A DNA stretch of 64,000 nucleotides, from the NCBI GenBank assembly GCA_027493875.1, contig JAOSJX010000023.1, forward strand, positions 248,001 to 312,000, read 5' to 3'. This stretch comes from Deltaproteobacteria bacterium (GTDB lineage Bacteria > Lernaellota > Lernaellaia > JACKCT01). Below, one piece after another: positions 16,011 through 18,326 of the stretch; positions within the stretch are counted from its first letter, which is position 1, and the number at the start of each line of letters is the position of its first letter. The notes beneath the pieces were generated by a model. It was not told the origin of the DNA. It saw only the letters and a list, made by a program, of their open reading frames with translations, and ran no database searches. The translations under genes were made by a program, and so were the position numbers.

Positions 16011-16844
16011 TGAACAAAGTACGCGTCGGCGACATCGTGATCGGTGAAGGCGAACCGTTGGCGCTTATTGCCGGGCCGTGCGTGATCGAGGACGAGGACC
16101 TTGTTTTTCATATCGCGGAACGGCTGAAAGAACTGACGACGAAAGTCGGTATCCCGTGGATTTTCAAAGCGAGCTATGAAAAGGACAATCGTGGGAGTGC
16201 AAGCGGCTACGGCGGACCCGGGATCGAGGCGGGTCTCGAAACGTTGGCGGAAGCTGAAACGCCGGTTTGAGGTGCCGGTCATTTCGGACGTTCACCAGAT
16301 CGATCAGGTCGCGCCGGCGGCGGAGGTTCTGGATATCCTGCAAATCCCGGCTTACCTGTGCCAGCAGACGTCGTTCGTGCTCGAAGTCGGCCGGGCCGGC
16401 AAACCCGTGAACGTCAAGAAGGGGCAGTTCCTCGCGCCGGAGAATATGAAAAGCGCGGTCGGAAAACTTCACGCCGTCGGAAACAAGCAGGTTTTGCTGA
16501 CCGAGCGCGGCTCTTGCTTCGGGTACAATCGTCTGGTTTCGGATCTGCGTTGCATTCCGATTATGAAAGATTTGGGATGCCCGGTGGTATACGATCCGAC
16601 GCACATCATTCGCATCTACGGTGTCCCGTCCGATGATCCAAGAGGCGGCGAACCGCAGTTCGTTCCGACGTTGACGCGCGCCGCGGTCGCCGCCGGCGTC
16701 AACGCCCTGTTTATTGAAACGCACACCGATCTGTCGCGCGCTAAATGTGACGCGGTGTCGATGCTGCGTTTTGACCTGCTCGAAGCACTGCTTCCCCAAG
16801 TGATGCGGCTTCAGTCGCTTGCGAGGGAATGGGGCACCGCCTAG
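16010..16844 (+). CDS. kdsA: 3-deoxy-8-phosphooctulonate synthase
   Basis: KdsA condenses PEP with arabinose 5-phosphate to give KDO 8-phosphate for the LPS inner core. It has LIAGPCVIEDEDLVFHIAE at the N-terminus, then FKASYEKDNRGS. The rest shows VPVISDVHQ, QIPAYLCQQTSFV, NVKKGQFLAPENM, YDPTHIIR and an FIETHTD segment near the end. One indel near 16262 separates the first 84 residues from the remainder. The span of 278 codons is normal. The start overlaps the preceding zinc-ribbon gene, so it closes the LPS operon. Confidence 0.92.
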
Positions 16845-16911: not shown

Positions 16912-16964
16912 ATGACGCACCGCGTAAAATAATTCTTGACAAAGTATGACGCGGTGCGTAAATA
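16912..16964 (+). promoter_or_regulatory. Strong promoter with two tandem operators, upstream of the phasin genes
   Basis: TTGACA (16936-16941), a 17-base spacer and TAAATA (16959-16964) form a near-consensus sigma-70 promoter. The 17-mer ATGACGC-N3-GCGTAAA occurs twice, at 16912-16928 and 16946-16962, 34 bases apart. Each contains the palindromic core ACGC-N3-GCGT, one just upstream of the -35 and one across the spacer and -10. The arrangement suggests repression by a dimeric regulator bound at both sites. Confidence 0.65.
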
Positions 16965-17031: not shown

Positions 17032-17451
17032 GTGGTAAAGGAATTGACGAAAAACCTGCCCGATTTTCTGAAGGCGAACCTCGGGAATGTGGCGGCGACG
17101 TTGACCTCGCTCGAAAAGGACGCCCGCGACGCGTACGACAAACTCGCGTCGCAGTCCTGGTCGCGTGCCGATCTGAAGAAGCGGCTCAGCGCGATCCGAA
17201 AGACAACCGTGTCGGCGCGCAAAGACGTTGAAAAAGTTCTGAACGACGGCATGAGCAAGGCGTACGGCGTGTTTAACATTCCGACGAAGTCCGACGTCGA
17301 CAAACTGGCCCGCCAGGTGAGCAAGGTGCACGCGGAAGTGCGAAAGCTTGCCGGAACGGCGGGCGGTAAGCCGGCGGCGCCGAAAAAGAAGGCGGCGAAG
17401 CCGAAAGCGCGCCGCAAGACATCCGCTCGCAAAACGGCCAAAAAGTCGTAG
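17032..17451 (+). CDS. Phasin-family protein with basic Lys/Ala tail
   Basis: This intact protein of 139 residues is helical in its first 100, with the segment NIPTKSDVDKLARQVSKV (about 80-97) that recurs in PhaF/PhaI-type phasins. The last 35 residues are a histone H1-like tail rich in Ala, Lys, Pro and Arg (KPAAPKKKAAKPKARRK), as in PhaF, which links PHA granules to DNA. GTG 17032 follows a good GAGGAGG site. The promoter upstream is the strongest in the window, fitting an abundant structural protein. No PHA synthase is present here, so granule association is inferred. Confidence 0.72.
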   Translation: MVKELTKNLPDFLKANLGNVAATLTSLEKDARDAYDKLASQSWSRADLKKRLSAIRKTTVSARKDVEKVLNDGMSKAYGVFNIPTKSDVDKLARQVSKVHAEVRKLAGTAGGKPAAPKKKAAKPKARRKTSARKTAKKS

Positions 17452-17470: not shown

Positions 17471-17818
17471 ATGCTTCAACCCAAAGCGATTCAGGAATCC
17501 ATTGGCGATGTACTGCACCGTCTCCGCGACGAGTCTCAATCGGCGTTGCGCCGTGCCGACGAGGAGTGGAAGTCCGTCACCGGCTATCTGGTCGAATGCG
17601 GAAAGCTTACGCAGAGCGAAGCGCAAAAAATCTACGATGAGTGGGTCCGCAAGCTGGACAGGAACCGCGCGGATCTCGAGCGTCGCTTTCAGACCGGGGC
17701 GAAGAAAACGCTGACGCGGCTGAACATCCCCACAAAAAACGAAGTCGATGATCTGTCGCGCCGTGTGGAATCGCTGTCCCAGCGCGTGAAGACACTGAAA
17801 AAGCAACTCCAAGCTTGA
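17471..17818 (+). CDS. Second phasin-family protein
   Basis: This intact protein of 115 residues is predicted to be all helical. It has a central LVECGKLTQSEAQKIYDEWV segment and a C-terminal NIPTKNEVDDLSRRVESLSQ coiled coil closely similar to that of the preceding gene. It lacks the basic tail. The pair thus resembles the PhaI/PhaF arrangement: one short granule coat protein and one tailed form. A 19-base gap with no promoter and a terminator after its stop indicate one transcript for both genes. Confidence 0.7.
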   Translation: MLQPKAIQESIGDVLHRLRDESQSALRRADEEWKSVTGYLVECGKLTQSEAQKIYDEWVRKLDRNRADLERRFQTGAKKTLTRLNIPTKNEVDDLSRRVESLSQRVKTLKKQLQA

Positions 17819-17956: not shown

Positions 17957-18326
17957 ATGTACGAAGTGCGTGTGAAAAAAGTTTTGCGGCGGCGCACAAT
18001 TTGCGCGAGTACCAAGGAAAGTGCGAAGCGTTGCACGGGCATAATTGGCTGGTTGAAGTCGTCGTTCGGGCTTCCGAACTCGACGGCATCGGTATCGCTC
18101 TTGATTTCGTTGAGTTGAAGGCAAGACTGAACGAAGAACTCGATCTGTTGGACCACAAATACCTTAACGAATTAACGCCCTTCGATAAGGTCAATCCGAC
18201 CAGCGAAAATATCGCTCGCTATCTTTTCGAACGCATGGCGGCGAAGTTAAAAATGACCGGTTGAGCGTTTCCCGGGTTGACGTGTGGGAAACGGACAACA
18301 ACTGCGCTTCATATTTTCCGGGCTAA
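17957..18326 (+). CDS. queD: 6-carboxytetrahydropterin synthase
   Basis: This is a 6-pyruvoyl-tetrahydropterin synthase-fold enzyme at the second step of queuosine synthesis. The zinc histidines are seen in FAAAHNLRE and LHGHNW, and the catalytic Cys in the intervening EYQGKCEALHG. LDFVELKARL, LDHKYLN and PTSENIARYLFERM follow. One base is missing near 17980. A second loss near 18262 moves the last part into another frame, where VDVWETDNNCASYFPG is a typical C-terminus, so the end is taken at 18326. A GGAGGA site precedes ATG 17957. Confidence 0.85.

Follow-up and report, generated by a model that had tools for sequence, protein, structure and literature searches.

The closest described systems are the phasin operators of PhaR-type regulators. 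The operators of PhaR (AniA) at phaP1 and phaP2 of S. meliloti are two YGCRNYGCR palindromes with arms rich in A+T, placed on either side of the -35 in the phasin promoter (PMC12542648); they were bound in EMSA, binding was lost on mutation, and the consensus is WNWDDNYGCRNYGCRNHHWNW (PMC12542648). In R. eutropha, a regulator carrying the PHB_acc_N domain acts at phaP1, where palindromes with a one-base centre and the core GCRNYGC are located at the -35 and at the -10/start of the phasin gene, and the PhaR cycle, comprising repression, release onto the inclusion, phasin synthesis and displacement, has already been described (PMC12849132). PhbF of H. seropedicae and PhaR of B. diazoefficiens belong to the same regulator family and have sites with the core GC-N3-GC (PMC3206438, PMC10888616). 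PhbF lowers expression from phaP1 and from its own promoter in E. coli (PMC3206438); for B. diazoefficiens the consensus is NGCN3GC[GA]N3, and two sites are given for phaP1, at -101 and -72 (PMC10888616).

Sites resembling these operators were found in the window, i.e. the whole analysed stretch of 64,000 nucleotides (G000:C23:248001-312000, G000 being the genome that carries it). The promoter region and the two genes behind it contain the following features:

16912..16928, + strand: putative PhaR-type operator 1, ATGACGCACCGCGTAAA; upstream of the -35, a perfect match to the S. meliloti PhaR consensus, kept in relatives
16936..16941, + strand: -35 hexamer TTGACA, read directly; equal position relative to operator 2 in relatives
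16946..16962, + strand: putative PhaR-type operator 2, ATGACGCGGTGCGTAAA; in the -35/-10 spacer and extending into the -10, differing from the S. meliloti consensus at 1 position, kept in relatives
16959..16964, + strand: -10 hexamer TAAATA, read directly; 17-bp spacer, 3/6 to consensus
17032..17451, + strand: phasin 1, GTG start, Lys/Ala/Pro-rich C-terminal tail; PF05597, 29.8 bits with a cut-off of 28.8
17471..17818, + strand: phasin 2, the next gene in the same direction; PF05597, 41 bits, with orthologues behind phasin 1 in relatives

The twin sites are most probably operators of PhaR, a regulator of the PHB_acc_N type (probability of roughly 0.88, judged from sequence comparison), which is likely to repress the promoter by occluding it. 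Their starts are 34 bp apart, and the 11-bp core of one is the exact reverse complement of the other's. The sequence-only reading had reported a 17-mer, ATGACGC-N3-GCGTAAA, present twice, 34 bases apart, with one copy before the -35 and the other over the spacer and -10 of a near-consensus promoter. The positions and the arrangement were confirmed, and the two copies proved to be the only ones in the genome of 5,211,157 bases (0 for the reversed control). As for the promoter, the description is correct for the -35, a perfect TTGACA, but overstated for the -10; the combination TTGACA-17-TAAATA was not reported by the promoter consensus scan at its thresholds. Better -10 boxes, TAAATT and TATATT, were found in equal register in relatives.

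In a G+C-rich genome such palindromes might arise by chance, and the bare 8-base core ACGC-N3-GCGT is indeed not above chance in the window (5 places versus 4.36 +/- 2.05 in shuffles), so that the weight rests on the extended match and on conservation. With a leave-one-out matrix built from 12 sites of six relatives, the window's own sites being excluded, the two operators hold the top two ranks in the 64 kb at 22.6 bits each, ahead of the next place, with 14.9 bits, and of the highest score reached in 100 window shuffles, 18.2 bits. Together with the uniqueness of the 17-mer in 5.2 Mb and the retention of the sites in 7/7 class genomes, this blind ranking leaves a chance origin a negligible probability, and conservation rules it out.

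Conservation was assessed in the class set G000-G006, consisting of the window genome and six class genomes found among 60 relatives. An orthologue of phasin 1 is present in each of the six, while a match at E <= 0.001 was obtained in 11 of the 60 relatives. Upstream of the orthologous phasin, at least two palindromes of the operator type were found in 7/7 class genomes, with start-to-start spacings of 34, 33, 34, 32, 33, 31 and 52 bp in G000, G001, G002, G003, G004, G005 and G006, respectively. One site lies upstream of the -35 in all seven genomes, and the downstream site lies in the spacer, running into the -10, in six; in G006 it is located just after the -10, a position occupied in G003 by a third site. 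Combined promoter and operator patterns gave 8 matches with 0 mismatches in the seven class genomes (5 at phasin genes, 2 at phaR and 1 other, G003:C59), and 12 with one mismatch, of which 3 are at phasin or phaR genes and 9 elsewhere. The proposal that the phasin promoter carries a pair of repressor-type operators is well supported by the conservation. The absence of further copies near PHA or carbon-storage genes and a lack of conservation in relatives had been named as outcomes speaking against it; neither appeared, since relatives retain the sites and further copies are located at phaR, a gene of the PHA type.

The published consensi of S. meliloti and B. diazoefficiens PhaR cover the window sites. 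With up to one mismatch, the S. meliloti motif gave 12 sites in 7/7 phasin promoters, compared with a mean of 0.30 and a maximum of 3 in 150 shuffle rounds, and operator 1 is its sole perfect match in 64 kb. Compared with S. meliloti, the core here is extended, with TGACGCRNYGCGT-M-A almost invariant. At the limit of 3 mismatches set by its authors, the R. eutropha motif accepts both operators but also 73 places in the window and therefore proves little; it gave 10 places in 6/7 phasin promoters (shuffle mean 2.06, maximum 7), with none in the promoter of G004 and a place in G006 that is not a twin site. Its consensus, YTKNTGCRNYGCANMAR (PMC12849132), shows T..A next to the GC pairs, where the window operators show C..G, and each of these operators has 3 mismatches to it. 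The sites of H. seropedicae contain TGC/GCA triplets in place of the CGC/GCG of the class (PMC3206438). The suggestion that the sites are unlike the known PhaR motif, and that the regulator may be new, was not upheld, since they fit the published consensi and co-occur with phaR across phyla. A new regulator family was rejected, given the presence of phaR in every class genome, the match to the PhaR consensus and the location of sites at phaR and phasin promoters.

Exactly one gene with a PHB_acc_N domain (PF07879) over the cut-off was found in each of the seven class genomes, and 15 of the 60 relatives have one. In G000, phaR is located on another contig (G000:C2) and is frameshifted after about 43 residues of the domain, which is probably, though not certainly, an assembly error. 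In the window itself, a kdsA-like gene (16030-16844) and a queD-like gene (17958-18264), both identified by visual inspection of the translation and of the loci of relatives, each seem to be interrupted by a frameshift that lies close to a homopolymer or repeat. The similar appearance of these two genes and phaR points to assembly indel errors, without proving them.

In a held-out test with the class matrix, the phaR promoters of five of the seven class genomes scored at p <= 0.006, the sites overlapping or adjoining a -35-like TTGAC or TTGAT; no significant site was found in those of G001 (p 0.45) and G005 (p 0.25). Outside the class, the phaR promoters of G020 and G030 scored (p 0.002), and those of G034, G039 and G048 had no scoring site. 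When up to one mismatch to the S. meliloti consensus was allowed, none of the seven class phaR promoters scored, and the phaR sites are therefore regarded as a weaker variant form, about TRACGCRNYGYGTTA; most of them end in GTGTTA. A site in the promoter of PhaR itself is not universal in the known family (PMC12542648).

The same sites were found in other phyla. Of 80 named phaR loci, 77 entered the promoter p-value test with the held-out class matrix, and 27 of them had p <= 0.05 against about 4 expected, including 18 with the smallest p attainable with 60 shuffles; most Bdellovibrionota phaR loci were without the site in this test. Across the 80 loci (457,222 bases), 22 sites score at least 16 bits; 9 of these precede phaR by no more than 230 bp, 11 precede phasin-like genes, and 2 lie elsewhere (L160, L176). 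The 11 phasin-side sites belong to six Chloroflexota loci, five of them with twin sites, which in the named Chloroflexota MAGs head phasin-phasin-phaR clusters. All five twin loci (L156, L159, L184, L185, L202) contain TTGACA, followed after 17 bp (18 in L202) by TATATT or TATAAT; the spacer holds one operator, and the other lies just after the -10. The site also accompanies phaR/phasin genes in a Myxococcales MAG; it is absent from a PhaR-like locus on a Chlorohelix plasmid. Among the open-licence papers listed by literature searches, which also covered Deltaproteobacteria, none describing the motif in these phyla was found.

It may be asked whether the palindromes are bound by another, unlinked regulator, e.g. 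one of the TetR type like Pseudomonas PhaD, with PhaR merely co-occurring. PF05597-type phasins, to which the window phasins belong, are controlled by PhaD in Pseudomonas, and a TetR dimer would likewise fit a palindrome of this length with odd spacing. The sites, however, occur with phaR and phasin genes not only in the class but also in Chloroflexota and the Myxococcales MAG, they fit the published PhaR consensus, and PhaR is present in 7/7 genomes, which makes a PhaD-like regulator improbable in comparison with PhaR. Judged by sequence, this is a real and conserved operator pair of a known kind, the variant of the regulator and the genomic setting being less usual.

The variant concerns the C-terminal half of the regulator. 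Alpha-proteobacterial PhaR consists of PHB_acc_N and PHB_acc (PF05233) (PMC10888616), and the Azospirillum PhaR, used as a control, shows both domains, PHB_acc at 4.4e-18. In contrast to alpha-proteobacterial PhaR, including that of S. meliloti, the class regulator has a phasin-like C-terminal half instead of PHB_acc, which was absent at E <= 1 from eight PhaRs scanned singly, six of them from the class (for L034, among the best 25 of 26 matches). The phasin family was matched at E <= 0.01 by 20 of 40 aligned PhaRs; most matches of the singly scanned proteins are below the curated cut-off, and one MAG protein labelled Nitrospirae is above it (38.9 bits). In a profile-profile comparison, 102 columns of the PhaR C-terminal half align with phasins at 97.4% probability (E 9.8e-12), and the controls, a reversed alignment and 30 column shuffles, reach at most 0.52%. 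A search of solved structures for PhaR gave no related structure (best E 0.064). The matches fall in coiled-coil-like sequence, so some caution remains; with this caution, a phasin-like half appears to replace PHB_acc in these PhaRs, an unusual feature. No description of a PhaR with such a half was found among the open-licence papers listed. The PhaR of G003 (C-terminus in L036) and the window phasin (17350-17451) end in Lys/Ala/Pro-rich tails, which resemble the histone-like tail of Pseudomonas PhaF and possibly serve for nucleoid attachment.

A further difference from S. meliloti is the lack of a detectable PHA synthase: no convincing one was found in any of the seven class genomes. PhaC_N (PF07167) was detected in one of them, G003. 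The class III model TIGR01836 was over the cut-off in none, giving 201 bits in G003 and at most 33 bits or nothing in the other six, where the G003 protein used as a query also found partial matches only, up to 40 bits. PHA synthases use cysteine at the nucleophile elbow; the G003 homologue has GWSMGG, with serine, at this position. Completeness of the seven class genomes is 78, 99, 99, 98, 96, 96 and 84%, so that the absence of the synthase is firm in G001, G002, G004 and G005 but less certain in G000 and G006. The gene for wax ester synthase (PF03007), an alternative storage enzyme, was likewise not found in any of the seven.

A search for a wider regulon did not reveal one. In G000 the 15-mer TKACGCRNYGCGTMA occurs exactly at 4 places: two are the window operators, and the other two have no clear promoter context. 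In the 15 site contexts inspected, phasin and phaR were the only gene classes to recur. A scan of genome contigs with the phasin gave nothing. The whole genome of G003 contains 59 matches to TKACGCRNYGCGTMA with up to one mismatch, versus 10 for the reversed control, an excess larger than in the other class genomes, which may result from a wider regulon or from composition. Further twin palindromes of the operator type were observed in G002, 20 and 17 bp apart (L225 1436-1470 and L221 4069-4100, respectively), beside a response-regulator-like gene and a second gene. At L077 (about 1501-1570, G001) and L085 (about 1460-1530, G002), PhaR-like sites adjoin a second palindrome, TGAATGAC-N-TTCATTCA, perhaps the operator of another regulator.

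The known PhaR cycle is the most economical reading of the class operators by analogy. The cycle that we infer comprises PhaR binding, repression and titration by an inclusion, whose make-up is likewise presumed. In the absence of a granule, PhaR oligomers would occupy both operators, one by the -35 and one in the spacer/-10, blocking RNA polymerase at the phasin 1-phasin 2 promoter. Once a hydrophobic inclusion forms, PhaR would be drawn to its surface through the phasin-like C-terminal half, the promoter would open and phasin would be made; covering the surface, phasin would displace PhaR, and repression would resume. Alternatively, PhaR might bind but activate, or do both, as it activates phaP3 in R. 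eutropha (PMC12849132), and operator 1, upstream of the -35, is in a possible activator position. The location of operator 2 in the spacer/-10 in 6/7 class genomes, and of one operator likewise in the Chloroflexota twins, favours occlusion, and an activating role is considered unlikely beside repression by PhaR.

These results extend the PhaR operator, measured in Proteobacteria, to an uncultured class and to Chloroflexota, which share a promoter design with TTGACA, an operator in the spacer and the end of the operator forming the -10. It is possible, with the odds somewhat against it, that a PhaR with a phasin-like sensor half runs a phasin feedback loop in class cells without PHA synthase. 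If so, the circuit would sense the free surface of a non-PHA inclusion, or of one made by an unrecognised synthase, and the regulator and its target would compete for one surface through homologous domains. The role of phasin and PhaR in genomes without PHA synthase thereby becomes a testable question with defined DNA sites.
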